Origin: Fennellomyces sp. T-0311
Taxonomy: Eukaryota > Mucoromycota > Mucoromycetes > Mucorales > Lichtheimiaceae
Length of the DNA: 64,000 nucleotides
Direction: 5' to 3'
Assembly: GCA_025266875.1 (NCBI GenBank)
Contig: JALLLT010000047.1
Location: 1-64,000 of the forward strand
Below the pieces are notes generated by a model. It ran no database searches, was not told where the DNA came from, and saw only the letters and a list, made by a program, of their open reading frames with translations. This document shows, one piece after another, positions 2,973-62,711 of this stretch. The position numbers and the translations under genes were made by a program. Numbering within the stretch: position 1 is the stretch's first letter; every line of letters begins with the position of its first letter.

Positions 2973-4968
2973 TCAGAAGCTCACACGCTCAATGCAAATT
3001 TCTTCTAAGACCATTGGATCTTCGTGTTCACCAAAGTACAGTACTTTCCAGTGACCAGAAGTGGAGTTTGTCGTACCTTTCCAATTTGCTTCTTCAATCA
3101 GTGCCTTTACTTCATGGAGCCTGAGATACTTGTCATTATCTGTTAGCACGGTATTGTAAAACTTGATGCTGAGTAAACTCTGGCTCGTGTTGAGCATTCT
3201 CCGTAAGCCTTCTTTGTCAATATACATGTATTCATTACCGCCAGACCAATCCGCATAAACCGTTTTGAGGAGCGATAAAGTAGCTAAGGCGTCAAGGATA
3301 TCAAAGCTTACATTGCGCACTTGCTGAAGATTCAAGTTTTCGATTCTAGTTTCGCGGAGCAGCCTGATAAACTCCAGTAAATCTCCGCTTGACACGGTTG
3401 AGCCAAGATCTATGTCCAATTTTTTCACTGTCTGTATCATGGCAAGCGTCTTGAGTGCTTCCAAGCCAAGTTCCGGTTTAATCCTCATGGCATACACCAC
3501 CTCCAGGTTCGAGTTGCGAGTAAATCTCTGGAAAAAAACCGCTGACAATGCGCTCTCGTTTGAAGCGCTGTTACCATTGGACGTAAATTCAACATCGTCT
3601 AGTTCGAGAGCTTTTAGACGCGCAGGACATTCAAAATGTGTTGGTATTTCGTTGAATAACTTTAAGTTCGATAGAACCAGCTTTTCCAGTGCGGGAAACC
3701 GTCCAAGAACCGTCGGCATGCAGAAGCCATCAATCAGTACGTTTTCTAGGTGTAGGTTCACGAGACATTCCATGATGCGAAGGGAGTGAAAACCAGACGA
3801 TGAAATGACCATGGCATGTGGAACGCACAAATCCAAGACTTTTAAAACAGGACACCGGTTGAGCAAAGCGATCAGCGACGCAATACTGAAATTGATTAGC
3901 CTCGCCGTCAAAAAGCGTAAGCTTGGCATGCAAAGTGATTGGAATACGGGAGACCAGTCAAAGTGATGGAAGGTGTATCTGGTAATTGACAAGTGTTCCA
4001 GTGTGCCCTGGTATCTCTTCAAACATCGCACAAGCTTGTCTACATCATAATCATCAGTCGCGTCAAGATAGCGTAGCCCATTGGAGTCTTCAAGATGTTC
4101 GATCTCCTTGGACCATGAGAAAGCGATTGAAAGGAAGGTGAGTTTTGGACACCAAGTAAAGAGTGAGTCGAGATCAACGATAGAAGATTGACCAGCGAAC
4201 GAGTCGGACACGTTAGGTGGAATAATTAAACATCTCAGCACTGGACACCTTTTGAGGATCCATTCAAGCTGCTTCTTGGTTATCATGCCTCTGTCGATAA
4301 GATAAAGGTATGTGATCTTTGTGCACGGAGAATCCAGCGAGATACTGATGTGCTGCTGAGCCATCGCATCCTCGATACATTGAAAATCACCCGTGGTAGT
4401 GTATGAAAAATGGGTAAGGCTTGGACATGCGTTGAGAACAGATAGTAACGCTATGTCGGATTCATGACGCTCCAACTCCAAGCGTGTTAAACATGACCCG
4501 AGTTGTCTGAGCAAGTCGACGAACTCATACTGTTCCTCCGTAGCACATTGCACAAGACCTAATTGATGCAGTGAGAAACTACTATAGTTTCCAACCACTG
4601 ATCTTACGAAGAGACTCGATTTTTGTACAGTTCCATTCTACAAGTCGTTGCATCAGAGTGACAGATGATACGCGTTGCAATACTACGCACTTCACATGGC
4701 TACCCAAGCACCGTTGGCGCCGGTGGTTATCCGCACGCACATCGCCTTCCTTGAATCGTAGCTCCCTCCATATCTTTTGTGTGTATTGAGGGATTGCATG
4801 GTACCAATCACGACAGACCGCCATGGACGTTAGACAATCTTGCTGCGATAGGTAGGAAAAAATCTCGATTGCAACATCAGAATGTAACGTGTGCATGAAG
4901 CTTAATTGTTGAGCTGATGGGACTTTCGAGACAGGAACGATGTCGTCGCCAGTGATTGTTGTCATCAT
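2973..4968 (-). CDS. F-box / leucine-rich repeat protein
   Basis: Probable substrate-recognition subunit of an SCF ubiquitin ligase. The N-terminal F-box would bind Skp1 and the LRR solenoid the target. The start is the first of two adjacent ATGs at 4963-4968; an upstream in-frame GTG at 5010 is not credible. One 49-nt intron (4559-4607, GTAAG...ATTAG) joins two different frames without loss (…IESLR|LVQCATEEQ…), giving 648 residues. The F-box is at about 27-70 (HSDVAIEIFSYLSQQDCL, then WYHAIPQYTQKIWREL). The remaining 550 residues are irregular LRRs of the L..L.L..C type common in Mucorales. A decayed paralogue lies on the other strand at about 28.4-29.3 kb. Substrate unknown. Confidence 0.85.
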
Positions 4969-5513
4969 TGTTGCTGTACGCGATATTGAGGAAGAGGAAA
5001 TGTGTGTCACCTTAGAAAGCTGTGCGAGTCAATTAAACTGCTGGTACACCTAATTGTGAGTATTTCGTATAGGATGCCTAATCATCAAAGTTCACTATTA
5101 AGCATCCATCGCTATATAGTTTGCTGATCGAAACCCAGACTGTTTGATCTACCCTACTATTTATCAGGTACAATTGATGAAGCAGGCATCAGCTGTGTAA
5201 AAAAGTAACTTGGGTACTGTAGAACTCATTGTACGCGTAGCTAATACCATGATAACTTTTAAACTGAGTAACATGCGGATATCGCTGCATTTTTGTGCTT
5301 GAATTGATGCACGTATATGCTCTGCATATATACCAGTAAAGAAGGGCTATACGAGCCGTTACTCACTGCCGCACGTATCCATATTACTCACCCACATAGC
5401 GCCCTTATCATCACTCCACCTTGTACGTTGTTATTGTTTATCTTTCATCTTTTTGTTGAAAAAAAAGTACTTCGTATATAGTAGAGGTGTTATGTACAGG
5501 AAACAGAACTGAT
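4969..5513. other. Intergenic, F-box promoter / C1-THF synthase 3' flank
   Basis: Contains the upstream region of the minus-strand F-box gene and the 3' flank of the minus-strand C1-THF synthase gene. No gene or repeat is seen; no clear TATA box precedes the F-box ATG. Confidence 0.5.
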
Positions 5514-8500
5514 TTAGAAAAGACCAAGAACATTGCCTTCCTCATCAAGATCGACATCAAAGAAGCAAGGGCGGGTAGGCAAACCAGGCATGGTCTGCAT
5601 GGAACCGACCAAAGGATACAAGAAGCCAGCGCCAACGGAAGCACGGATATCACGGATGGGGACGGTGAAGCCAGTGGGCACACCCTTCAATGCAGGGTCG
5701 TGACTAAAGCTGTATTGCGTCTTGGCCATACAGATTGGCAAAGAGCCGAAGCCCTGCTTGGTATACGTCTCAATCTTGCTCTTGGCCAAATCACTCAATT
5801 CGACACCATCGGCACCGTAAATCTCCTTGCAGATGGATTCGATCTTCTTCTCGATAGGCTGATCCAAATCGTACAAGAACTTGAACTTCTTGTCCTTGTC
5901 ACAGGCATCAATCACGGCCTTGCCGAGATCCACCGCACCCAGGCCACCACGAGCCCAGTGATCACATGCCACAGCATCATCAGCACCGGCATTCAAGGAC
6001 AACTTGCGGATAATTTCCATTTCAGCATCGGTGTCCGAGGTGAAACGGTTAATGGCAACCACAACCGAAATACCAAACTTCTTTGCGTTTTCAATATGCT
6101 TGACAAGGTTAGCGCAACCCTTCTCCAAGAACTCGAGGTTTTCTTCGGTGTAGGCATCAGGAAGGGGCTTGCCGGCGACAACATCAGGAGCACCACCGTG
6201 CATCTTGAGAGCGCGGACAGTGGCAACAATCACGACAGCATCGGGCACAAGACCAGAGACGCGACACTTGATGTCAAAGAACTTTTCCATGCCCATGTCA
6301 GCACCGAAACCAGCCTCGGTCACGACGTAACCTGGTTCCATATCCGTCTCACTACCTGCCAACTTGAGTGCGACTTTATCAGCCAAAACCGACGAGTTGC
6401 CGTGAGCAATGTTTGCGAAAGGACCGGCGTGTACAAGGACGGGTGTGCCTTCCAAAGTCTGCATCAAGTTGGGCTTGATGGCATCCTTCATGAGAACAGT
6501 CAAAGCACCACCGATACCCAAATCATCGGCAGTGATAGGATCACCACTCTTGCTACTGGCAACCACCATGTTACCGAGACGCTGGCGCATATCCTTCAGA
6601 TCCGTAGCCAAAGCCAACACAGCCATGACTTCACTAGCAACCGAAATGTCAAAGCCGGTGGTACGCTCCTGGCCCTTCTCAGTGGGGTTCTGACCAACGG
6701 TGATCTTGCGCAAGAAACGGTCGTTGATGTCCACAACGCGTTGCCAGGTGATAGTTTCGGGATCAATATCGAGACGAGCAAAGCGACCAATTTCTTCCTC
6801 TGTCAGTTCTTCGGGTTGCGTCTTATTGATGCCCAATTTCTATATCGACTCTAAGAACGATGCTCTCCCAATACGTATATAGCTTATTTACCTCGAGACG
6901 TTTCAGCATGACAGGAGCAAACTTGCGGACGCCCTTTTTGGCAGGACACAAACGGTTGAACAAGGCCTTGTTTGTCTGGGTATTCTCATGGAACATACGG
7001 GCATCCAGAGCAGCAGCGAGCAAGTTGTTGGCAGCAGTGACAGCATGGATATCACCAGTCAAATGTAAGTTAAACTCATCCATAGGAATGACTTGTGAGT
7101 AACCACCACCAGCGGCACCGCCCTTGATACCAAAGGTGGGGCCTTGGGAAGGCTGGCGAACACATGCAAATGCCACCTTGTTCAAGTGCGCACCGAGAGC
7201 CTGAACTAAACCGATGGTTGTGGTAGACTTGCCCTCACCCAACGGAGTGGGGGTAATACCAGTAACCACGATGTAACGACCATCTTTCCGGTGTTCGAGA
7301 CGCTTAAGCACATCCAATCCGATCTTGGCCTTAGAGGCACCGTAGAGCTCGTATTCGCCAGCACTCAAACCGAGTTCACGGCACAAAACTTCCATGTGCT
7401 TAGGAGTCTGTGATCTGGCGATTTCGATATCGCTGGGCACCGGCGTCTTGAGATCGATCGAAAGAGGTGCAATGTTGCGGGTACGGCTCAGATCGAACCA
7501 GCGCTTGGCACTAACCCAGGTATTCTCCATCAACATAGCAACGGTCATGGGACCAACGCCTCCAGGCACGGGCGTAATGGCGCTGGCAACTTCAGCTGCC
7601 TTGTTGTATTCGACGTCGCCTACCCAACGCATACCTGACTTTTTGGTTGAATCTAAAGAGAACCTTCGATGAGTCTCCCGGTTCCTCCATGCGCATGAAT
7701 GGCTAACTAACCAGGAACGCCGTTGGTACCAACATCGATGACCACAGCACCAGGCTTGATCCAGTCTCCCTTGACAAACTCGGCATTGCCGATGGCTACC
7801 ACCACAATATCGGCTTGCTTGACCTATTGTCCCTAATGTGAATAATAATCCTATGATAGAAAGGACAAGCTTACAATGCTTTCGACGTCCTGGGTTCTGG
7901 AGTGGCAAATCGTAACGGTGGCGTTGGCTGCCGTGAGAAGTGTAGCAACAGGTGCGCCCTACATGCACAAGCATAAACCTTAATTTGAATTCAAGAGCAC
8001 AAGCCCAAACTCCTTACTAACCACAATATCACTACGTCCCAACACGACGGCACGCTTGCCGTTGATATCGATGCCAGTTGAGCGAAGCAAGGTAATAATA
8101 CCCTTTGGCGTGCATGGCAAGAACAAAGGCTCGGCTGACTTTTTGGCCATGTTACCGATATTGACGGTGTGGAAACTATATGCATGCAAGGCTTAGAAAT
8201 ATTCTTGCATGCTGCAAGTATGATATTAATATTACCCGTCAACATCCTTCTGGTAGTCGATTGCTTCGACGACGGAAGTTTCATCGATATGTGGAGGCAA
8301 AGGCATTTGAACCAGAATGCCATGGATACCATAGTCATCGTTCAGCGAACGCACCTTTTCCAATAGTTCTGCTTGCGACACCGATTCCGGAAGCTTTTGC
8401 AACGTGAACTGGATGCCTGCCTATATAACTAAGCCGTTAATATTTTGATCCCTTACGTGTTACTCAGATAATACCTCCTTGGCAGCACGCTCCTTCATGC

Positions 8501-31142: not shown

Positions 31143-31373
31143 AATTTACAGATTGGTATCCACATGATGCAATTGCATACGTTGTACATATATCCACAGA
31201 TAAAAGAGTAATAGCAAGACTTGGCAAGAGTAACGTAATGCGACCTGATGTCGTTAAAAATGGAATCGACCGTGTGAATGTATCGTCAATGTTTGTTACA
31301 CATAAGGTGGCTGGTTACCAAGCTACACCAGTGCTTGACAATTTTTGCTTTCTTGCAAACTCTAAACCGCCGA

Positions 31374-33233
31374 ATGACCAACGTAGAAGGCGACCAAGTC
31401 AATGCATCTAGGCGACAAATTACTACGCGCTGTCAAGATACCGATGGCATCCATCCTGGTTTTGACCAGCTTCTTGCCAGTGCAACCACGAATTCAAAAC
31501 TCGGTCATTTCAACGACGCGATGAACGATGCAAACAGTGCAATCAAACTGAATCCGCGCGGGTTCAAAGGATATGTTGTCGCCAGTGAAGTATACTTGAT
31601 GCAAGGCAAAGCCGATTTGGCAGCGGATGTCTTGGCCCAATGTCTACGAAATATGTCACCATATGATCCACACTATCAGACACTGGTTTCCTTTAAAGAA
31701 GCCGCTGAAATCCAGAATAGCAAAGGCATTGATTTCACAAAACTGCTTCCTGTCGAGATTGTATCCAATATTTTTGTCCGGGCGGGTGGGATTGAATCGC
31801 TCGTGGTACTCTTGATGGTCTCCAAAGCTTGGCGCATGCTCGTGCTCGAATTACCGGATCTTTGGCGAACATGCACTGCCCCCCTCAAGCTGGATGAAGA
31901 TGCAAAGATATGTGATGCTCTAACCGTGGTTGCTGGAAAGCATGTGAAGAGCTTTAATCTAAGAAGCCATCCGTCAGTGATATGCTTGAGGTATTTGGAT
32001 CATATGGAGCGCGGAACATTTTCCAGATTGTCTTCGTTATCGGTGGAAGGTATTGTATCCGCACGAGACTCAATGCCAAGCTAATGATGGATTGCGTTAG
32101 ACGGCGTGACAAGTTTGGTATCAGGAGGACGACTTTCCGAGATACTCCGCCAGTTAAAGTCGACATTGAAAGAGTTGGATATCTCGTTTAGTAATGGCCG
32201 CGAGGAAATGCTTTATGTGACGGATATCTTGGCATTATGTCCAGGACTTACGGCTCTAAAATATGCTGCTGCGCAAGGGACTGTGGAATCATCAACCGAT
32301 AGGCTAGAACCAGCTCAACCACACAATCTAGCCAAGCTTCGAATAACCTCGTCAGGGAACAACCATACGATCAGTGATAGTGGTCTACGGCTTGTCCTTC
32401 GACGATGCCCCTTATTGCGACTTATTAACTTGAACAGATCCAGTCTTGATTTCCTTGCTGCAATCGAAGAGACATGTCCACACATCGAATACATCACGAT
32501 GCAACACAGCTTAACACCAGAGATGTTCGACATCAAATTCGCAAAGGACCCTGCTGGAGGCATTATTGCATTGAATCTCATGGGTGGCACAGATATTTTG
32601 GACAGCCTGATACCGTTTTTAAACAGACACAAGGACACATTGCAAGAACTTGAAGCGCCCAACGCCATGATCCATAATACCATCCCACTATCTCATTCTT
32701 CACCTATCGATCCGATCCGACTTCCAGCCTTACAAAGTATAGGCTGCTGGATTTCGGAGACTGACCCTGGGACAGAAAGGACATTGACCAATATCATTCG
32801 ACACAGTCCGTTGCTGGAAGAAGTTTGGTTGGCGAATGGAGCGGCTTCTGAAGATACAATTTCTGCCCTAAAGGACTTGGATCATCTTGAAATACTTGGA
32901 TTGCATTATATAGATGTAGTCCAGAACGATGGTGCGCTATATGCTTTGCTTGATAAGCATATTCAGCTAGGACATAGATCACCATTGCGTCACTTTTCCG
33001 CCATTGGTCGCATGACGCGTCACTTTTTTTCAAAGCTGTCCAAAGTTGAAACTCTTCGCGAAATTGGTCTCTGGGAAGCCGATATCTCTACTGACGAAAT
33101 TGTTTTGCTCCAGTTTGTCAAAAACCTCGAGGTTTTGCCGTATTTAGAATCCGTCACATTGTCTTTTAATGCGGCTCGTACTTGTGATGAAGTGCTGGAA
33201 ATTGTAGGCAAAATTAACAGAAAGAGAAGATGA
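31374..33233 (+). CDS. TPR / F-box / leucine-rich repeat protein (Pof3/Dia2-like layout)
   Basis: Probable SCF ubiquitin-ligase adaptor. Two exons with a 51-nt intron (32050-32100, frame kept across SVE|DGVTSL) give 602 residues. A TPR-like helical region occupies about 20-110 (FDQLLASATTNSKLGHFNDA, then PRGFKGYVVASEVYLMQGK). The F-box follows at about 125-165 (DFTKLLPVEIVSNIFV…WRMLVLELPDLWRT), and irregular LRRs make up the rest. The order TPR, F-box, LRR is that of yeast Dia2 and fission yeast Pof3, but this layout is widely amplified in Mucorales, so orthology is not claimed. The open frame extends upstream to 31278; the ATG at 31374 is the first credible start. Confidence 0.83.
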
Positions 33234-37071: not shown

Positions 37072-38915
37072 ATGCTACCCATCATTGAAAGTGCACACCA
37101 CGCTCTGCAAGCCGTTGAAAGAAGGCTAAGGGATCGCGTACTCGGCATTGATGCATCCGCTAAGCGGGTACTATTAGTGCTTGGAGTAACGGGAACCATT
37201 ACTTTTGCATTCTCCAAGTACATCCTATATCGACTTTACCTTCACCCGCTTACCAAGATTCCTGGGCCACGTGTATCATGGATCCCATTCATTGGAAACA
37301 TGTGGAACATTATTACTGAAGAGGTAAAGCAATGTGAAAGGTAAAAAAAAAGAATCTTTTGTGCTTATGAGACCTTTTTTTGCCAAGGCGGGAGCCCCTC
37401 ACAAGCGATGGACCCAAGAACACGGCGGAATTGTGCGTTATCACGGAGCATGGAACCAACCACGCATCATCGTCAGCGATCCAACGCTATTGAAGCAAAT
37501 TCTGATGACTCAACAATACGACTTTATCAAGACGCCCACCGATGTGAAAATTCTTGGTCGTATTGGCGGAAATGGACTCATTGTTGCAGAGGTAGGTACA
37601 TAAGCAGCGCTTTTACAAACCCACACATTCTAAACACATTCCCTATTTAGGGTGATGTGCATCGTCGACACCGCAAAATGCTCCATCCGGCATTCTCACT
37701 GCAAGCCATTCGAGATTTGGTACCCGTCCTCTTTGTTCCTGCCGTTCACCTATGCGAAAAATGGACGCAAGAGATCAAAGAAAAACAGACAGCTGACAAG
37801 GCAGTGGCCATCGATGTATCCCATGGGATTTCACTAGCAGCACTGGACGAGATTGGGTTGTTTGCATTCGGACAAGAGTTCCATGCCATTCGAAACGATG
37901 GGACCCACAAGATCAATAGATTGGGTGCGGCGTATCATACCATTTTTGATCCCAACCATCGATCCATGCTGCAATTGTTTGGCTTGTTCTTTCCGATACT
38001 CCAAAAGGTACCCACGTCACAGAATCGATTGATCCGCAAGGCATTGAGGACGATGCATGAAGAAAGCAGAAGGGTGGTGCAGCGCGGTATAGAACGCGCA
38101 CAATCCACGTCCAAGAACGAGAATTATTTGCTGGCATTGATGATTCGCTTATCAGATGACGAGTCGGGAAATGGGTTCACGCCCGAAGAATTGAGACAGC
38201 AATGTTTGACGTTTTTGGCTGCAGGGTACAACAACGAGAAAACAAGACGATGGACTCTTTTTAAACTAATCCACACGTATGTAGACACGAAACAACCGCC
38301 GCAGCATTATCATGGTGCCTGTGGTTTTTGGCACAGAACCAAGCAATCCAAGACGCATTGCGGGCCGAGATCACGCCCATGTTTGAAAAGATCGACATGA
38401 ACGACCCGATATTCCGTGGCAATCCGTTCCAAGGTGGCAGTGACACTCCGTCCTACGAAGGCATCAACCAACTGCACCTACTCAACAATGTGTGTCGCGA
38501 AACGCTGCGACTGATGCCCGTGGTGCCAATCACGTCGCGTCTTGCCACCAAGGACACGGTTATGAATGGCCATGTGATTCCCAAGGGCACGTATTTGCAC
38601 TTGCCACTGATTGTCAATCACCACAGCAAGGAACTGTGGGGAGCGGATGCGGAAGTGTTTCGACCCGACCGGTGGGACCAAGACGTGGCAGCCAAAGTCA
38701 GTCCATATGACTATTGTCCGTTTTTGGCGGGTGGACGTCAATGCATTGGCTATCGATTCGCACTCATTGAAATCAAGATCATTCTGGCCATGCTGATCAC
38801 CAAGTTCCAGTTCTTTGAGAAACCCGGATTCGTCTGCAAGAAGCAACAGCACATTACTCTTCGCCCATCCCCAAATATGATCCTGCTCGTTCGACCTGTC
38901 GAAACCAATATCTAG
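37072..38915 (+). CDS. Cytochrome P450 monooxygenase, CYP509-like (Mucoromycota-type)
   Basis: Haem-thiolate oxygenase anchored in the ER membrane; substrate unknown. Four exons (introns 37324-37387, 37592-37650, 38226-38284) give 553 residues from the ATG at 37072, which begins MLPIIESAHHALQAVERRL after a pyrimidine leader. An upstream ATG at 37006 would add 22 residues. A membrane anchor at about 35-50 is followed by the proline hinge IPGPR. The I-helix LAAG|HETT is restored only by removing the third intron. Other motifs: ETLR (K-helix), FRPDRWD, and FLAGGRQCIG with the haem-ligating Cys at about 497. Assignment to CYP509 is by overall resemblance and needs a family search. Its stop lies 56 bp from the convergent GEP4 stop. 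Confidence 0.92.
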
Positions 38916-53353: not shown

Positions 53354-53689
53354 TTAATGATCATGACCCGTAATAACTGTAGTTTTGGCATTCTTGTCGT
53401 TGCTAGCCAAGACACCACCTTTGGCTGCATTGTTAAGCTAAAAAAAAAAGCAATGAGAACACATAAATGACAAAAAAAAGGTCAATGCACTTACGATACC
53501 GCCGACTTTTCCTTCATTGTTGCTTCCACCGACTATCACGTTGCTACCGTCTTCATGACTGTAGCGGCTGCCGCCATAACCGCCGCCGCCGCAGCGACCA
53601 CCGCAGCCACCGTAACCACCACCGCTGTTGTGAGCAAGAGCGACCGTGGCGACCAGAGCAAAGATTGTGGCAAGAGAAAGGACCTTCAT
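53354..53689 (-). CDS. Secreted peptide paralogue 1 (divergent, Gly/His/Cys-containing), 92 aa
   Basis: Two exons with a 57-nt phase-0 intron (53438-53494). The signal peptide is MKVLSLATIFALVATVALA, followed by a Gly/Tyr-rich segment with two Cys (about 21-45) not found in the other copies. Then come NVIVGGSNNEGKVGGI, the intron, and LNNAAKGGVLASNDKNAKTT with a short tail ending HDH. The NNEG block, the intron position and the (V/L)NN…K.G.L..N.KN block identify it as a member of the array at 53-63 kb. It is the outermost copy and the longest. A TATA box lies about 85 bp upstream. Function unknown; no known peptide family recognised. Confidence 0.85.
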
Positions 53690-53770
53690 TGTGGGTAAGA
53701 TAAAGATTTTGTTTTTTGGAAATAGACTTGTTGTGATAATGTTCTTTGGAAATGTCAAAACACATCTTGC

Positions 53771-53778
53771 TTTATATA
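53771..53778 (-). promoter_or_regulatory. TATA box, peptide gene 1
   Basis: TATATAAA on the minus strand about 85 bp upstream of the ATG. Confidence 0.6.
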
Positions 53779-55044
53779 ATCATCAAAAAAAGACGGTCGA
53801 CACCAGAATAGAATAATTAATGTTGGCGCTGTGGGCCATCGTTTTCACTGTAAAAAGATCTCCTCGGTTGCGATTAATACACTTTATTAAAAATAAAGGT
53901 GAGAGGGCTTCTTGGAAAACAACGATGGGGAGGTACATTTTCCTACGTATAGAATTTAATAAATCCCTGTTTTCATTGCCCATACATGTAGTAAGGTGAT
54001 CCTCCTTCTTTTCTTTTTTCAGTGGAACCATGTCTCCTTACTGCGTCGTTCTCATTGGTAAATACCATGCGCATGACCCCTGCAGTCCCCCGGAGACTAT
54101 GTTGCCAACGACAACGGGTTCCCTGCTGTCGTCGTCACCAGTGTCATTCCAAAATGTGAAGTTTTTTTTTTAATGAACATCCTCCAGTGATCGTATCCAC
54201 GGCCACTATGGTAACCAAAACCGTGCAAAAATTTTTGGTAAGCGTATATACCCCCAAGTACGTGAAATTCTGATAAACCGGCAATACGTAGATGGCTTTG
54301 ACCATTTTTATTATCACGATAAAGCAAGCGAAATCAAAATACTGTAAATGCTTTCTTTTGAAATGATAGGTCACCAAAGGGATATGTCTTTTTTAGCTAG
54401 TGGCCAATAATATTATTAAAGTTTCCCACCCTTGGTTGCTCACACCGGCATGCAAAACAAGGGTAGCACATATCCGCCTAAACTTTGCCCCCATCACAAT
54501 GAAAATAAAGATTTTACAGAATGTATTTTTTTCTATTACGCTAATATGTATCGCACGTACGCAATGTTTACAGAAGCAGGCCAAGAAACAGCTATTTACA
54601 GTGATACGTTCCAACTACACGTATCATAACTAGCTATAACCGTTTTACGTGTACACGATATGAAGCGCATGTAAATTGTACGTATATCTCGATTCACGAA
54701 ACAGTAAAGAATAGGTACGACACGGCAATATCCTACGTATACTTTTGATATAAAAAAAGAATATCAGCAACAGTTTACGGGTGAGAAGGGCGATCAAAGA
54801 AGGATCAGAAGTATAAAATCAATTAACCCCTCATTCCCCTTTCGCCAGCTGTTGCTGGTAAAATTACATACGGCTGAAAGTTATGCTACACTTGCTGTAA
54901 GCATTTCATAATAAGATCTTCAATTGATGAACATAGTTGATGGATGTTTTTGGTGGGTTTATTCAGAATGACCAGCTATAAAAGTAGCAAAGGATCTAGA
55001 ATATGCGCGGGTATACTTGGAATCGCATGATACGTGAAAAGATT
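53779..55044. other. Array spacer 1
   Basis: AT-rich spacer between peptide genes 1 and 2; no gene or further peptide copy seen. Confidence 0.4.
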
Positions 55045-55297
55045 TTAATAGCCGTCACCGTTGACGACCGTGGTTTCTGAATTTTTGTCGTTTCCGGTAA
55101 GCAGACCACTCTTGAGAAGATTGTTGACCTGATCGATAGGTTAGTGATACAAGGTATATGCGATAATAATAGAGCAAGTTTCTCACCATGCCGTGAACAT
55201 CGCCTTCGTTGTTGTTACCACCAGCGGAGGCACCACCATCAGCAGCAGCGACAGCAAGGAAAAGAGCAAGGACACCGAAAGCGAATGTGAACTTCAT
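55045..55297 (-). CDS. Secreted peptide paralogue 2, 64 aa
   Basis: The signal peptide is MKFTFAFGVLALFLAVAAA; mature DGGASAGGNNNEGDVHGM ends exon 1. A 58-nt intron (55129-55186, phase 0) precedes VNNLLKSGLLTGNDKNSETT and the tail VVNGDGY. Same architecture as paralogues 3-7. No Cys and no dibasic processing site. The mature peptide (about 45 residues) is Gly/Asn-rich and acidic overall. Function unknown. Confidence 0.87.
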
Positions 55298-55344
55298 TGT
55301 GATTGATACTTTTTTGTATTCCAAATCCACAAAGTCGTCCACCC

Positions 55345-55352
55345 TTTATATA
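55345..55352 (-). promoter_or_regulatory. TATA box, peptide gene 2
   Basis: TATATAAA about 50 bp upstream of the ATG on the minus strand. Confidence 0.6.
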
Positions 55353-56458
55353 TTTGAGCCGCCAACGAAATATGTTCATATCAGTAATTTTCATTGTTTG
55401 CTTCATACGGTAACATTGATCTAATATAATTTGTCATAGAGCTATTACACCATGTTGCTCCTGCTCGGCCAAAGTCTCGTAAAACCATCGATATTAATTT
55501 AATTGTTACCTTGTACGCAAACTCCTGTTCTAACCAAACACACACACAACGTGCATGGATTTCTGGGACTCCCTTGCAGTGATCGACGTTCTGCATTTCC
55601 TCGAGCATGACAATACAGCAGAACGAATTTACAAAATTGCATATCTGTCTTTAATGTGTCGACGCTTTGGATAGCACATTACATGTTTTTCTTTGATTAC
55701 CCAAAGGATACTGAAACAGGTATATTTTTCATTTACATCTCTTCCACAGATCGTTATTATAGCATCAAAGGAATACGTACGTCATCATTCCCGCGCTTTC
55801 CGCACCAAATCCGTGAGCCTTTCCGATATGCGGGATTGATTAATATCTCCTTTGTGTTTCAGTGGAGGTAAATTTACTGCCTTGTTTACATATGGTACTA
55901 TTGTAATATGTACCCCGAAACCAACGAACGGACGAATCTCCTGGATGTTTGTGGGTGCTTCGCGCCCATCGTCGGAATTCCCGTGGTATCACTTGAATCT
56001 GTACATAGAATGACTATCTCGATCGTCCCAAGCATGATAACGAACCACCTTTGTTCATAGTTAATTTTTTTTATTCCCATCACTGTCATACGCGAACGAA
56101 GCTTTGAACGTATAATTGTGCTGTACCCAAAGTCAAATACCAAATGATAGCTTGCGATGCCCTTTTTTCTATAATTATCTCCTGGAATAAATTTACAGAA
56201 ACCTATTTCTTTGTGAATAGTGGAGCTATCATTCCAAACAGAATACTCGTTACTTTTTATAATCCAGCGAATGCGATAGAGCAATCGACGAATTTTTGAT
56301 AACATTGCAAATAGTTATGGGATGAATGATGATTTCATTTATTTGTGACAAAAGAAAATGTTTTGACGATGCAAGTGGTGGTGTATAGTATAGTAACTTT
56401 GAAAGTTCACTATGATCTGATAATGGGATGATGCAAGTATGATAGAGTGCAACAGGGT
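55353..56458. repeat. Array spacer 2, duplicated with spacer 3
   Basis: Its 5'-flank part repeats in the next spacer: agtgatcgacgttctgcatt is identical at 55578-55597 and 57117-57136, and 55803-55860 resembles 57341-57399. Its right end (56311-56450, the 3' flank of gene 3) resembles 57931-58060. This shows duplication of whole gene units. Confidence 0.75.
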
Positions 56459-56714
56459 TTAGTGATCGCCGCCAACGACCGTCTTTTCCGAGTTCTTGTC
56501 GTTGCCAGTAAGGAGACCACTCTTGAGAAGGTTATTCACCTGTCAAAGAGAGAGAGAGACCGACATGATGAGTGATGCGCAACAAATAAATGTTTCAACT
56601 TACGAAACCGCCGACATCGCCTTCGTTGTTATCACCACCAGCAGAGGCACCACCATCAGCAGTAGCAACGGCAAGGAAAAGAGCAAGGACACCGATAGTC
56701 AAAGAAAGCTTCAT
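56459..56714 (-). CDS. Secreted peptide paralogue 3, 63 aa
   Basis: The signal peptide is MKLSLTIGVLALFLAVATA; mature DGGASAGGDNNEGDVGGF ends exon 1. A 64-nt intron (56540-56603, phase 0) precedes VNNLLKSGLLTGNDKNSEKT and the tail VVGGDH. Closest to paralogue 4 (exon 1 differs at few positions) and to 2 in exon 2. Function unknown. Confidence 0.88.
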
Positions 56715-56781
56715 TGTTGATAAGATAGAATTGATGGATGCGTTGTTGTTGATACTTTTCGAAACCACAAAATTGTGTGCC

Positions 56782-56789
56782 TTTATATA
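56782..56789 (-). promoter_or_regulatory. TATA box, peptide gene 3
   Basis: TATATAAA about 70 bp upstream of the ATG on the minus strand. Confidence 0.6.
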
Positions 56790-58065
56790 TGTGCCATTGC
56801 GCAGCGCATAAATATTTTCCTCGTCATCATTAATCGTTTGCTTCATAGGGTAACATTGAACGAAATAAAGTCGTCATGGTCATCTACACTACTGCTCCTG
56901 TTTGGCCATAAATCTTGCAAACCGACTGATATTAATTAACAAGTCACTTGGAATGAAGGTGCTGACATGAAGTTGTAGCAAAGAAAAAAAAAGAGGGGGG
57001 GACTTTACCCCGGATTTACGTAATAGACTAAGGCTCGTTTTAATTAATTGTTCCTGTCGATTCAGTTTCCCTCCTTTCCCCCTTTTCACATCGCACTCCA
57101 ACAGCTTTTCAGAAAAAGTGATCGACGTTCTGCATTCCCTCAAATCTGACAGCGTAATTTTTTCTGTCAATGATTATATTTGCCGTCAACAGCACGTTCA
57201 TGTGAAGCAATAGAAACAAAGCACTGCGTACTTTTTTTCCTCGTGAGTCCACTGCAGCAAGCTTCTCGGCTGGCTCACATTGCACTGTTGGTCAAGATAT
57301 CTCTATCGTTTAGTACATAATTCATCCCGGCATTGTCTTCACCAAATCCATGAGTCTTCCCGAAATACGGGATTTATTAACATTCCCGTTTGCTTCAGTA
57401 GAACAACATATCCATAACCTACTGTCATCAATTAGGGGCAACTATCATAGTAATGAATAACAATATGTGGACTCTGAAATCAATGAAGTAACGAATTTTT
57501 TTCCTGGGTATTGGTGAGTAATACGTATCGGACAGTCCTGAAACGTAATCCCTTTGGTCATGGATTCTGGCTTCGACTGGCATACCATCACCAACGAGGC
57601 ACAGCACGGACTCCAAGGTCCGCTTTCGCATGTTGATCACAATCGCGAACACGGCAGTTACTCAAAAATCACTTTATGCGTAATTCGCTCAGAATTGACT
57701 ATGATGTTTTTTTTTAAAAAAAAAAAAGCCGGTAAGCCAATATAAAATTCTGATGCCTATGAAACGTCGATTATTGCATAGCCACCATCATGATCTTATA
57801 ATGGCCTGATATAATAATGTTACAGAGATCCATCTCTCTGAGAGGGCGATAGCTGTAAACTATTTCAGATAGAATGTCTGTCATCATCGATAATTGAATG
57901 CAGCAGAGTATGTGTTGAATAATAATGGACGTAGTTATGGAACGAATGATGATTTCAATTTATTGATGACAAAAAATAGTTTCAATGATGCAAATGGTAT
58001 ATAGCAAAGCAATAGTTAGCTATAGCCTGGTATGTGTGATGCGAATACGATGAAGTGTAATCGGT
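56790..58065. repeat. Array spacer 3, duplicated with spacer 2
   Basis: Matches to spacer 2 are at 57117-57136 (identical 20-mer), 57341-57399, and 57931-58060 against 56311-56450. Between them lies unique AT-rich DNA with T and A runs near 57703-57726. No additional peptide copy seen. Confidence 0.75.
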
Positions 58066-58326
58066 TTAGTAATCGTCGCCAACGACCGTTTTTTCCGAGT
58101 TTTTGCCGTTGCTAGTAAGGAGGCCACTCTTGAGAAGGTTGTTAACCTGAATAAGAGAGATCGACATGATTAGAAATAAAAAACGAGATGCACAACAAAT
58201 AATGCTTTAACTTACGAAACCGCCGACATCGCCTTCATTGTTATCACCACCAGCAGTAACACTACCATCAGCGGTAGCGACAGCGAGGAAAAGAGCAAGA
58301 ACACCGAAAGTCAAAGAAAGCTTCAT
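58066..58326 (-). CDS. Secreted peptide paralogue 4, 63 aa
   Basis: The signal peptide is MKLSLTFGVLALFLAVATA; mature DGSVTAGGDNNEGDVGGF ends exon 1. A 69-nt intron (58147-58215, phase 0) precedes VNNLLKSGLLTSNGKNSEKT and the tail VVGDDY. Function unknown. Confidence 0.88.
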
Positions 58327-58394
58327 TGTTGATAAGATAGTGTTGATGGATGAGTTGTTGATGTATTTCGAAAAGTCGGGAAACGCACCGTCCT

Positions 58395-58402
58395 TTTATA
58401 TA
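58395..58402 (-). promoter_or_regulatory. TATA box, peptide gene 4
   Basis: TATATAAA about 70 bp upstream of the ATG on the minus strand. Confidence 0.6.
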
Positions 58403-59240
58403 CGAAACGTATCGAACCGCTTCGCTCATATTGGGCAATACCACTTTCATCATTTACTTCATACGGAAAAATTAAGGGGTCATCGAAACGGCACTGCCAT
58501 TTCCACCGTTTGTTTCTGCTCCTACTCTTTGGAATCGCTTTTAATTAAATCGGACTTGCTCTCGGCAAAGTGATTGTGATGACCCCTCCTGGCGTGTACA
58601 CGGTCACCAAGGGTACTTTTTTTTTTTTCGTCAGAACCTGGCTATCACTTCCCTATGACATCCCTAAGGGCTGTGAACTCATGCAGAACCTGGGTGAAAT
58701 TACAAAGTTCTACATCACGTTCATTACATTTATCTAAAAGCTGCCATAGAGCAAATGTCATTATCAACAAAAAAGAAGGCCCGATCCACATCCCTTGAAA
58801 GAATTCACTTGTGTAGGGATAACCGAGACTACCAATACTTTGCATGCCTTGAACGATACTGATACTTGGCATCATAACCAGCACACTCATTTTCACTCGC
58901 TTATGATAATTCCTACCCCTAACTGGAACTATTACATTCTTGATCTCCAGTCGTAATGACGCACTACAGTTAATTACTCTTTCTTTCTATCATTGATCTC
59001 GTAGAATGATCCATATTACATGTAGGTATTTTGACCTATCCAAAGATAGTAAAGGGTTATCCCAGTACCGAGCAGTGCTGGGCTAAACACGTAAGAGGAA
59101 CGTAAAACGGAAAAAAGGGATTTATTGATGTAAGTTTTAACACTCCAGATATCAGTGCCCAGTAAAATAGCTGCAGGGTATAATAGGTGATGCGGTTTCG
59201 AAATGGTGCTATTTTGAAGAGATCCTTGTACACCATCTTA
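58403..59240. other. Array spacer 4 with an unassigned ORF
   Basis: A minus-strand ORF at 58645-58890 (from an internal ATG, about 81 residues) has one hydrophobic segment (GPSFLLIMTFALWQLL) and a polar tail. It has no recognised family and no clear promoter, so it is not called as a gene. Confidence 0.3.
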
Positions 59241-59527
59241 TTAATCGTCATCTTCAAAGTAAACATTGGCCAATGCGTTCTTGTTATTTCCAGAGAGGAA
59301 GCCACCCTTGAAAAAGTTGTTAACCTAATAATAGGAGTACAAAAAAATGATTGGGTGTTAAACACATATGTCTGATTTGCCTTTTTTTTGTTCGTTGAAC
59401 TTACGAAACCATCTACTCCGCCTTCATTGTTATTACCGCCAACATAAGCAGCTTCATCTTCCCAGTCATCTGCGGCCACAACAGCGATAAAAAGAGCAAG
59501 GATGCCAAAACTCAAAGAAAGCTTCAT
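59241..59527 (-). CDS. Secreted peptide paralogue 5, 68 aa
   Basis: The signal peptide is MKLSLSFGILALFIAVVAA; mature DDWEDEAAYVGGNNNEGGVDGF is more acidic and four residues longer than in copies 2-4. An 80-nt intron (59325-59404, phase 0) precedes VNNFFKGGFLSGNNKNALAN and an acidic end FEDDD. Most diverged of the standard copies in both variable segments, while the NNEG and VNN…K.G.L blocks are kept. Function unknown. Confidence 0.86.
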
Positions 59528-59591
59528 AGTGGGTAGATCAAGATAACAGGCTTGTATGATAATTATTGCAAAAGCACAAAATAATTGCGCC

Positions 59592-59600
59592 TTTATTTAT
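59592..59600 (-). promoter_or_regulatory. TATA-like box, peptide gene 5
   Basis: ATAAATAAA on the minus strand about 65-70 bp upstream of the ATG; a weaker match than in the other copies. Confidence 0.4.
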
Positions 59601-61025
59601 GCGAAATAGCAAACCGTAACATTGGGTACGTGCAAATGCCAATCTTGACAGAGATTTCTGGCTTTGGCGGGAACTTTGCCCCCACGCCCCCTTGGCGGAT
59701 CCGGAATGCTTCCGGTGCTGCTCTTCCGGCAAAATCTGCAATAGCTTATTAATTAATCCCACTTTCTGGCATCGTCTCACGACAGCTCTTACCATCCGTG
59801 GAAAGTGATATATGCAGTGGTATCATTCCGATACAAGCAAAATCCATGAATTGATCGAGTGACAAGGTCTATATTTGACGTTATTAACCTCATCAAGAAG
59901 CAGCGACGCATACAGTTTTAACCTTATTCATAAGCAATTTGTATGAAATAAAATATTGGCACTCTAAGCATGATACTTTATCTCGTTTGTATATCGGTAT
60001 TTGTTTATGTGTTATAGTGAAGAACTTTTATTTTTCTTTATTTGATAGAGTGGGCACTGCCTATGGCTGAAACATGACATTATTCTTTTCGATAACTGGT
60101 ACTTGACGGTCATAGAGCGATCCCAAGTGTATCGATCAGTAACATGTGAAATTTAACTGTACCGCAACTTTGATTTAGATTGTGCATACGTACGATCTTT
60201 GGTACAATCATCCCTTGCTCTTGTGTCATACACACCGAGATGAAAGTACCCTTTTTCTGTAGGATGGAGGTATGTACATATTATTGGAGCGTCCTACAAA
60301 AATGCATGCACGTTAGAGGAAAACCTAGAATGACTGGTAAACTTACGTAGGGAGGCCCGACCTTAAATTTTTTTAATTACTTTTGATAACCATGCAGCGT
60401 GCGTATGGGACACTCTCCTATGATCTAGATAATACATGATGGCTCTATACAGTGGAACTCCGTTTTTTGCACAGGCGGTTTTCCAGAAAATGTAGTGCAA
60501 AAACCGGGGGTGAATTGGCAGAGAAGCTGAGCGAGTTGGCCGAGATTTTGATGCAAGAAGTGGGGGTGTGCAAAAAACGAGAGTGCAGAAAGTGGGGTTC
60601 TACTGTACACATTTCGTGTACAGTCGACCGCGCATTTTTGAATATGACATTGCGATACGTAACAATTAAAGCAATTTTATAAAAGTGCGATATAGCATCA
60701 ATTTCATTATAACAATGCTGAAATAGTGCATAAAGTAGCATCACTGTCATGTTAAGGGCCGTTGTCAACGATATAAGATAATTACGCAACAGACAAAAAT
60801 CTCAACAAATCAAAATATTTGTAAAGATAAAGCGGATTTTGCAAATTCACCGTTTACGCTATGTACCATATATCCGGATTTCGCCATTATCGGATTATTC
60901 AAGTCAAGGAGTTAAGGGGCAATTAGGATTATTTATTTGTCTTTAGAGCTGCAGCAGCCAAAAAAAGACTACAGTAAGGGTATACGATCCATGCTTCAGC
61001 AGCAAATGGTAAATTGACAAGGGAG
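59601..61025. other. Array spacer 5, contains a MITE-like element
   Basis: Apart from the inverted-repeat element at 60448-60607, no gene is seen. A TACAGTCGACCGCG motif at about 60614-60627 resembles the terminus of the element at 63.2 kb and may be a lone or degraded end. Confidence 0.4.
60448..60607. mobile_element. Short TA-flanked inverted-repeat element (MITE-like, Tc1/mariner or pogo type)
   Basis: A 156-bp element (60450-60605) with imperfect terminal inverted repeats CAGTGGAACTCCG and CAGTAGAACCCCA, flanked on both sides by TA as expected for a TA target-site duplication. Further inside, GCAAAAAACG-type sequence repeats in inverted orientation (TTTTTTGCAC near the left, GTGCAAAAAA near the right). 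It is non-coding and would need a transposase supplied elsewhere. The superfamily is inferred from the TA flank and CAGT termini. Confidence 0.65.
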
Positions 61026-61288
61026 TTAATCGTCTTTAGAAACAATGACGGTATCAGAGTTCTTGTTGTTGCTCGTAAGAAAGCCGCTCTTGAATGGGTT
61101 GTTGACCTATATGCGATCAAGTTCAGTTATAACACAGAAGTTGGAACGCTCTATCTGATCTGGTTGCTTACAAAACCACTGACGGAACCTTCGTTATTGC
61201 TTCCTCCAGCAGCAGCATAGCCATCGTCGTTGGCAGATGCAAGAGCGATAAAGAGAGCAAGGACACCGAAAGTCAAAGAAAATTTCAT
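61026..61288 (-). CDS. Secreted peptide paralogue 6, 65 aa
   Basis: The signal peptide is MKFSLTFGVLALFIALASA; mature NDDGYAAAGGSNNEGSVSGF ends exon 1. A 65-nt intron (61107-61171, phase 0) precedes VNNPFKSGFLTSNNKNSDTV and the tail IVSKDD. It forms a subgroup with paralogue 7 (GGSNNEG, VNNPFKSGFLTSN). Function unknown. Confidence 0.88.
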
Positions 61289-61346
61289 GTTGAACGTGTA
61301 GAGATGGATGGTAGAATAATACAAAATCTGAATCCATCTCGTTGAC

Positions 61347-61354
61347 TTTTATAT
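61347..61354 (-). promoter_or_regulatory. TATA box, peptide gene 6
   Basis: ATATAAAA on the minus strand about 60-65 bp upstream of the ATG. Confidence 0.55.
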
Positions 61355-62451
61355 CCAAGATGGCTTCTGTCTGTCAGCATGCATGCCAGCTTTTTACGAA
61401 AATCTAATTGATGCATAGGTAGCGTCAGGATTGGTATATGCCTCCTTCACTCTGTTCCAAAGAAAAAGAAAGTATGCATATCTGACACTTAACATTGAAA
61501 TTAAAAAAAATTCTGAAGCATGTATGTCCCTTAAGTTCTGGTAAAGTTATCAATCTGAACCGAAGAAACCTTATCTAGGGATAACGTTTTACGTATTTAG
61601 CAATGTACTGCGCTAAAATGTATCTTCTTTTGAAAAAAAATTTGCGTCAACGCAGGATTGAAATCCAACTAAGGACTAAATATTAAAGCATATTTTGCTA
61701 AAAAAGACCTTCTACAGATTTTTCATGTCAGAAATTATATTAGACCTGCACGCTTTGACGATATGGCCTATTCAGGCGATAAAAAAATTTAAACTTTTGC
61801 ATAATAGAATAATGGACGACCCCGTTCACTCCTTTGTCTCTGATATTCGTATCGAAAGGAGGAAGTATACAATTTGACGTCTATGAATGAAGCAGGTTAC
61901 ATATGCGTATCTGGCAGTGAGTCACAGTTATCTTGACTGCGCTACTCAGTTTTATATATGTAATTATGAGTACCACATTACATGATGAAAGTGAAACCAC
62001 GGAGTAGTAACTATAAATATAGCCGAAAGAAGACCTTCCAGTCCCAAAAATATATGATCCGAGATTTAAGTACATGGTATGCACGTTTGAATAACCGCCG
62101 AAAAAAGGCACATATGCACAAGCGATAAGTGGCGCATTCCAAAGTTGCTAATAAAACGAGACAGTAATTTCGTCTCCTATCATGTTCACCAACGCATTAC
62201 CTATCGAAGTTAATTCGCATCTTTCAATCGAAATATTGTGTTTGAACTATTAAAACAACAAACATTATATTACAACATTGCCGATTCGCGACTACTTGAC
62301 TACTTGAATAGTTGTATTTGGAACAATAGCTGAATTTAATTTATTCACATAAAATATATAATCCTCAGCTATTAAGCGAGTAGCACCTCTGGTTAGATAG
62401 AGCTACGGGGTATCTTGATGCGCCACGCAAGGAAACAGCCGTACAACTCAT
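61355..62451. other. Array spacer 6
   Basis: AT-rich spacer; no gene or peptide copy seen. Confidence 0.4.
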
Positions 62452-62711
62452 CTAGTCGTCTTCACGAATGATTGTAGTGTCCGAGTTTTTGTCATTGCTT
62501 GTAAGGAAACCACTTTTGAATGGGTTGTTAACCTAACCACAATAGCGGTGTGGATTAGAGCGTGTTGCATGATATGGTGTTGAATGCTTTGACTTACAAA
62601 TCCACTGACTGGACCTTCGTTGTTACTACCACCGGCAGCGGCGCCTCCGTCGTTAGCCGATGCAATGGCAATGAAGAGAGCGAGAACACCAAAAGTCAAG
62701 GAAAGCTTCAT
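62452..62711 (-). CDS. Secreted peptide paralogue 7, 64 aa
   Basis: The signal peptide is MKLSLTFGVLALFIAIASA; mature NDGGAAAGGSNNEGPVSGF ends exon 1. A 65-nt intron (62533-62597, phase 0) precedes VNNPFKSGFLTSNDKNSDTT and the tail IIREDD. Stop is TAG, unlike TAA in the others. It is the first copy at the right-hand end of the array; no further copy is visible to 64 kb. Function unknown. Confidence 0.88.

Follow-up and report, generated by a model that had tools for sequence, protein, structure and literature searches.

One peptide unit in a predicted tandem gene array and in candidate KEX2-processed repeat proteins of Fennellomyces sp. T-0311

The first 64,000 nucleotides of contig JALLLT010000047.1 of Fennellomyces sp. 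T-0311 (C125:1-64000; this whole stretch is the window) hold a run of small minus-strand genes, which a preliminary description had taken for seven secreted peptides of an unrecognised family. What are these peptides, how would the cell make them, and what might they do? In a genome of 45.6 Mb in 182 contigs, we find that one peptide family is very probably made by two routes, namely single-unit genes and KEX2-processed repeat proteins (KEPs), with splicing, signal cleavage, secretion and Kex2 cutting all predicted steps.

The array and its polyprotein relatives

Seven minus-strand genes, modelled from sequence, lie in the window where they had first been placed, and all seven spliced models agree with the description of a shared core that carries a phase-0 intron at its boundary, as far as predicted splicing goes. 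The encoded proteins measure 63-92 aa, each gene has one phase-0 intron of 57-80 nt, inserted in all seven between G(F/M/I) and (V/L)NN, and 22 columns are invariant in the alignment of the seven proteins. The core GG.NNEG.V.G / NN..K.G.L..N.KN is present in every one, which bears out the picture of a local, secreted-type peptide family with a conserved core and variable ends. The spacing of 0.9-1.8 kb holds loosely and is corrected here to gene starts 1.2-1.8 kb apart and intergenic gaps of 0.9-1.5 kb, and the mature chain length of the peptides, first given as 42-73 residues, depends on where the signal peptide, judged by eye, is cut. The pattern NN[ED]G.[VT].G[FIMLV] occurred 17 times in the six frames of C125:1-92500, whereas 20 sequences simulated under a first-order Markov model of that region contained it not once. 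The exons of the seven genes, each named by its start, are as follows.

62598..62711, minus strand: array gene 62711, exon 1 (signal peptide by eye and first half of the unit)
62452..62532, minus strand: array gene 62711, exon 2 (second half of the unit, stop)
61172..61288, minus strand: array gene 61288, exon 1
61026..61106, minus strand: array gene 61288, exon 2
59405..59527, minus strand: array gene 59527, exon 1
59241..59324, minus strand: array gene 59527, exon 2
58216..58326, minus strand: array gene 58326, exon 1
58066..58146, minus strand: array gene 58326, exon 2
56604..56714, minus strand: array gene 56714, exon 1
56459..56539, minus strand: array gene 56714, exon 2
55187..55297, minus strand: array gene 55297, exon 1
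55045..55128, minus strand: array gene 55297, exon 2
53495..53689, minus strand: array gene 53689, exon 1, which includes a Gly-rich insert with two Cys; the unit clusters with KEP2 units
53354..53437, minus strand: array gene 53689, exon 2

A six-frame search of the genome with four queries, whose counts are lower bounds, confined the family to contigs C125, C127 and C13. The array itself comprises 17 minus-strand genes, ten at C125:53354-67315 and seven at C125:76966-85292; the count of seven is correct inside the window and too low for the whole array, because the window edge cuts through it, and the other ten array genes, a C13 gene and two polyproteins had been missed because they lie outside. 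Sixteen of the 17 models were built by script and the gene at 82535 by inspection, and open frames with GT-AG introns were obtained for all 17, GT and AG having been required in building. The dispersed single-unit gene at C13:118727-119106 has a propeptide that resembles that of the polyprotein KEP1 and contains Arg-Arg. Together with the 8 units of KEP1 and the 11 of KEP2, the array and the C13 gene bring the total to 37 unit copies. The Gly-rich insert of gene 53689 (about 53558-53632, minus strand) carries two cysteines, and none of the other 16 array peptides has any. Between two array genes, a stretch at about 60448-60607 has ends that by eye resemble inverted repeats (TACAGTAGAACCCC ... 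GGAGTTCCACTGTA on the minus strand) and looks like a small non-autonomous transposon. The 9.65-kb gap in the array (C125:67316-76965) contains minus-strand frames, of which three were scanned, two giving F-box-like matches and one an LRR match below cut-off; inside the window, LRR or F-box matches were likewise obtained at 2976-4637 and 31278-32081.

The two polyproteins lie on C127. KEP1 (C127:154856-156628) has 439 aa, 8 units and 8 introns, one per unit, at the same boundary and all in phase 0, so that growth by duplication of a symmetrical exon would account for it; KEP2 (C127:165144-166901) has 544 aa, 11 units and 2 introns, located at that shared boundary in units 1 and 9. Arg-Arg stands at every unit junction (7/7 in KEP1, 10/10 in KEP2), one extra Arg-Arg lies in the KEP1 propeptide, and neither protein contains a further dibasic pair, giving 8 and 10 Arg-Arg against averages of 0.9 and 1.4 in shuffled KEP1 and KEP2. 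The codons of the junction arginines vary (proportion of synonymous differences, pS, 0.52 and 0.55 for the Arg-Arg codons), and both residues are kept at 17/17 junctions. The pieces that would follow a junction Arg-Arg (n=17) measure 44-46 aa in 16 cases and 56 aa in one, and the array peptides, if cut after residue 19 as presumed, measure 44-50 aa in 16 of 17 and 73 aa in the remaining one. No STE13 dipeptide (XA/XP) follows any of the 17 junction sites. A further, divergent unit, flanked on either side by dibasic pairs, lies inside an 85-aa frame at C127:168029-168154 and looks like a decayed relative of KEP2.

KEP1 and KEP2 thus resemble known KEPs in having many near-identical repeats (at least three in each), dibasic sites between the repeats and a possible secretory N-terminus, judged by eye from Lys-2, a hydrophobic stretch and small residues ahead of a possible signal-peptide cut. 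The organism also has a kexin gene, on C161, which combines a peptidase S8 domain with a P-domain and has Kexin as its best PDB match (E 1.2e-95); at C104:29362-29682 there is a second proprotein-convertase P-domain match, where no open frame was resolved. Polyproteins of the same unit punctuated by Arg-Arg therefore link the family to KEPs and narrow the list of roles. The window array genes themselves are relatives of KEP units and not KEPs, having one unit each and a dibasic site in none of the 17 array preproteins.

The term unrecognised family remained apt, with no Pfam match above the family cut-off for the three of seven window proteins scanned, for KEP1 or for KEP2 (two larger exon frames), and no family match among PDB sequences, whether by profile or by the 393-aa KEP2 frame. 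The same frame gave 2 and 200 pattern matches in collections of viral and prokaryote genomes, where fungal genomes are not expected, and none was confirmed. A CmlS_C match to KEP1 (E 4.4e-5, 24.1 bits, cut-off 27, spanning 27 repeat residues) was also obtained with one array protein (E 0.23), and is taken as chance since the core is shared by both.

Conservation, descent and expression signals

All 37 aligned units agree at N4, G7, G11, N15, G20 and N25, although the pattern with which the KEP units were extracted already required N4, G7, V9 and G11; because the units retrieved by that pattern outnumber the junctions by one in each polyprotein, no KEP unit was lost. In paralogue comparisons, the ratio of nonsynonymous to synonymous proportions (pN/pS) was 0.15-0.26 for the core and reached 0.55-0.67 over the final six aligned codons, alike in the array, KEP1 and KEP2, and nowhere above 1. 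These ratios indicate purifying selection on the core in all three sets, and with even the tail at 0.55-0.67 they give no sign of an arms race within the comparisons made. With synonymous sites close to saturation in most sets, the ratios are approximate and the array is for the most part old, the exception being the pair 58326/56714 (pS 0.26). Array member 66170 lacks the core lysine.

In the tree of units, that of window gene 53689 grouped with KEP2 (support 95/98) and the C13 unit fell, weakly supported, among KEP1 units. A single clade of all polyprotein units was rejected by the approximately unbiased test (p-AU 0.006, or 0.004 with the C13 unit included), and the clades tolerated were KEP1 alone (0.13), KEP1 with C13 (0.09) and KEP2 alone (0.29). 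As the tests were picked after viewing the tree and rest on 35 columns with some long branches, they are only suggestive of polyproteins that arose at least twice, or of array genes that came from polyproteins.

In 18 of the 20 family genes a TATA box stands 40-130 bp upstream of the ATG, a feature shown by 7.2% of random positions in C125:1-92500 and by 7.4% of those there that precede any ATG. Read from sequence, TATA boxes and core pN/pS appear to be independent signs that the family genes are real. Flanks of array genes aligned to each other at E 1e-3 in 4 of 136 pairs upstream and 1 of 136 downstream. Nevertheless, an element near TTAATTTTTCCGTAWGAAG, first noticed by eye, is present in 13 of 20 promoters (11 array genes, KEP1 and the C13 gene; leave-one-out p < 0.01), at 108-165 bp ahead of the start codon, and 10 of these 13 score above all 2968 background segments, from which the array was excluded. 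At the same threshold it was unsupported in seven of 20, namely KEP2, 53689, 59527 (0.011), 61288, 62711, 78671 and 79788. Its sharing may be explained in part by common descent. In strict form (at most two mismatches) the element had 5 matches in the genome, 4 of them ahead of array genes (4/17), against 4 in all for a control pattern, so that the signal lies in location and not in number. Three occurrences in the window are listed below.

58457..58475, minus strand: promoter element TTAATTTTTCCGTATGAAG, lying 149 bp upstream of the start codon at 58326
56842..56859, minus strand: promoter element, degenerate, before gene 56714 (leave-one-out p 0.0003)
55402..55419, minus strand: promoter element, degenerate, before gene 55297 (leave-one-out p 0.0003)

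Codon adaptation toward EF-1alpha and histone genes, measured against an amino-acid-matched expectation, was raised in KEP1 (z 8.4), KEP2 (z 12.4) and the pooled array (z 7.8), compared with z of 0.2 or less in eight of ten long window frames and 2.7 and 11.0 in the other two, a rough background because at least one of the ten (5460-6851, plus strand) is the antisense of a real gene. The values themselves were 0.40 for KEP1, 0.45 for KEP2 and 0.35 for the pooled array versus 0.72-0.81 for EF-1alpha and histone genes, and single array genes ranged from 0.22 to 0.54.

Sixteen of the 17 array peptides and all 18 polyprotein pieces have a negative computed charge, the exception being 53689 at +1.1; Gly and Asn together make up 0.29-0.34 of the peptides, and cysteine is absent from KEP1, KEP2 and every array peptide other than 53689.

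Possible roles of the peptides

The explanation that we consider best overall, while placing it a little short of an even chance, combines the two precursor designs with a bulk, surface-active coat role. The family would consist of acidic, Gly/Asn-rich secreted peptides of about 45 residues. In the array and C13 genes, one unit per gene would be freed by signal peptidase, after an Arg-Arg propeptide in the case of C13; in KEP1 and KEP2, 8 or 11 units per preprotein, separated by Arg-Arg, would be cut apart by kexin in the late secretory pathway. At the cell surface the peptides may then act in bulk, forming a self-assembling, surface-active coat on hyphae, sporangiophores or spores, the job that repellents do in Ustilago and hydrophobins in many Dikarya. 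Among known proteins, dose, purifying selection, unit length and Kex2 layout make Rep1-type repellents the best fit, and a function resembling that of the Ustilago Rep1 repellents, argued by analogy, is plausible, if slightly less so than the overall explanation.

Rep1 is described as a set of amphipathic imperfect repeats of 34-55 aa with Kex2 sites (PMC4617103), yielding 11 peptides, ten of them 35-53 aa long and the eleventh 228 aa (PMC4617103), and its peptides are reported to form surface-active amyloid-like fibrils with a role in aerial hyphae (PMC4617103). KEP1 and KEP2 share with it imperfect repeats separated by Kex2 sites, a similar peptide length (mostly 44-46 aa here) and the lack of a STE13 signature, which the available text of PMC6339444 likewise states for Rep1. 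Their predicted pieces fall within the 35-53 aa range by length alone, the cutting itself being predicted. Proteins rich in Gly and Asn have been linked with amyloid character (PMC8786786, in the part available). The host differs, being apparently of another phylum, and here the peptide is also encoded by a large single-unit array. Hydrophobins have only the proposed role in common with the family, which shows no eight-cysteine pattern.

Several points weigh against a coat of this kind. The likeness to Rep1 is one of described features, and mean hydropathy is below zero in every peptide computed. The central hydrophobic segment is only borderline amphipathic (helix periodicity p 0.04-0.09 over three nested segments; strand-type periodicity of hydrophobicity p 0.65-0.80), conservation instead follows a strand-like, 160-degree periodicity (p 0.011 and 0.018, with no correction for the angles tested), and a pseudo-repeat sought inside the unit was not found, the best score of 9.8 comparing with a shuffled mean maximum of 12.2. 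Unit lengths are also less uniform than the scheme implies: a crude signal-cut rule sets some array cuts at residues 20-23 and gives chains of 40-50 aa, the first KEP1 unit would be released at 63 aa, outside the 44-46 rule, and no Arg-Arg precedes the first KEP2 unit. Finally, hydrophobins, described before PMC6784888 only in Dikarya according to the available part of that source, are reported there in Caulochytrium, with one in Mortierella elongata, and PMC6733946, as far as its available text goes, leaves those of Mucoromycota unsettled. In the present genome PF01185 had no match, a weak negative because control genomes gave none either and PF06766 was not searched.

The preliminary description had listed effectors, antimicrobial, self-recognition and surface-active peptides as candidate roles; the last is the best-fitting candidate, and effector and self-recognition roles drew no positive evidence. 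Peptides directed at competitors or hosts, whether antimicrobial, membrane-active or effectors, would be in keeping with local tandem amplification, variable ends and a secretory N-terminus, and KEP-derived peptides elsewhere include the cytolytic candidalysin (PMC9769878). The precursor of candidalysin, from Candida albicans, likewise gives rise to a linear peptide by KEP processing (PMC9769878), but the units of KEP1 and KEP2 are homologous to one another and acidic, and no evidence of lytic activity was found. Antagonism is nevertheless unlikely: the nearly uniform negative charge speaks against a cationic antimicrobial of the classical kind, cysteines (two) occur in just one array peptide, and pN/pS stays below 1 even in the tails, albeit between paralogues with nearly saturated synonymous sites. 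We regard as similarly unlikely a family of hormones or pheromones released by Kex2 and perceived by a receptor, of which the array would hold the single-unit versions. Strong conservation of the core would suit such signalling, as would the resemblance of the KEP layout to alpha-pheromone precursors (PMC6339444), and the repeats of one pheromone precursor often vary as well (PMC6339444). Yet ascomycete alpha-pheromone precursors, although also multi-copy Kex2 substrates, have far shorter units, and the STE13 dipeptide is lacking at all 17 junctions here; pieces of 44-46 aa fall outside the 9-24 aa pheromone class (PMC6339444), Mucoromycotina are stated to use apocarotenoid pheromones (PMC6339444), and 37 differing copies, varying within one precursor, suit bulk use better than a single receptor.

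Two other readings seem very improbable. Kex2-cut repeats are the layout of ustiloxin-type precursors (PMC7329392), and ribosomally synthesised and post-translationally modified peptides (RiPPs) of the dikaritin type would use a short core inside each unit, tailored by other enzymes; conservation here spans more than 20 residues, six positions being identical throughout, and not a short core, and UstYa (PF11807, DUF3328) had 0 matches in the genome, a weak negative as control genomes were unmatched too. The family might also be a relic of mostly silent tandem duplicates without a shared product, its KEP resemblance incidental, and the degenerate copy on C127, the lost lysine of member 66170 and codon adaptation as low as 0.22 in single array genes are of the kind expected. 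Against this stand open frames with GT-AG introns in every array gene (with GT and AG required in modelling), purifying selection, and the TATA boxes and promoter element in 18 and 13 of 20 genes.

Returning to the surface coat, a stronger version seems doubtful, if somewhat less so than antagonism or signalling: an independent counterpart of the Ustilago repellents, in which the fungus, with no hydrophobin detected, would have its own coat system made of an array with a shared promoter element and of Kex2 polyproteins that arose separately at least twice. KEP1 would then have grown by duplicating a symmetrical phase-0 exon and KEP2 by repeat growth inside one exon.

Surroundings and significance of the family

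Elsewhere in the window, a transposase-like frame lies on the minus strand at 173-1168 (Plant_tran PF04827, E 2.1e-67; DDE_Tnp_4 below its cut-off), two overlapping minus-strand frames at 5517-8013 encode a formate-tetrahydrofolate ligase and part of a THF dehydrogenase, and two overlapping plus-strand frames at 37651-38912 a cytochrome P450. Among the ten long window frames, codon adaptation is highest in the 441-aa frame of this ligase pair. CotH has 38 match places in the genome, which together with other lineage traits points to Mucorales.

KEPs as such are already known, including in Mucoromycota (PMC6339444, PMC7329392), where 357 were reported in 38 of 39 strains (PMC7329392). The available text of PMC9769878 calls KEP-derived peptides widespread and their functions largely unknown, and that of PMC6339444 leaves their role in early-diverging fungi still to be found. 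The present family differs from the KEPs of these accounts (PMC6339444, PMC7329392, in the parts available) in that the same unit also occurs in 17 single-unit tandem genes without a dibasic site and in one dispersed gene, and in that each of the 8 units of KEP1 is split at the same place by a phase-0 intron. What we did not find described is the presence of both layouts of one unit: the papers searched gave no account of a unit that makes up a large array of single-unit genes and also recurs inside polyproteins, one of which has an intron within each unit, and core strings of the family matched no paper full text, though supplementary KEP tables may list it.

In this genome one unit can be followed in single-unit genes and in polyproteins together, which allows unit boundaries, maturation and the birth of a polyprotein to be read directly. 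If the coat role is true, the family would tell how moulds with few or no hydrophobins make their aerial structures water-repellent.

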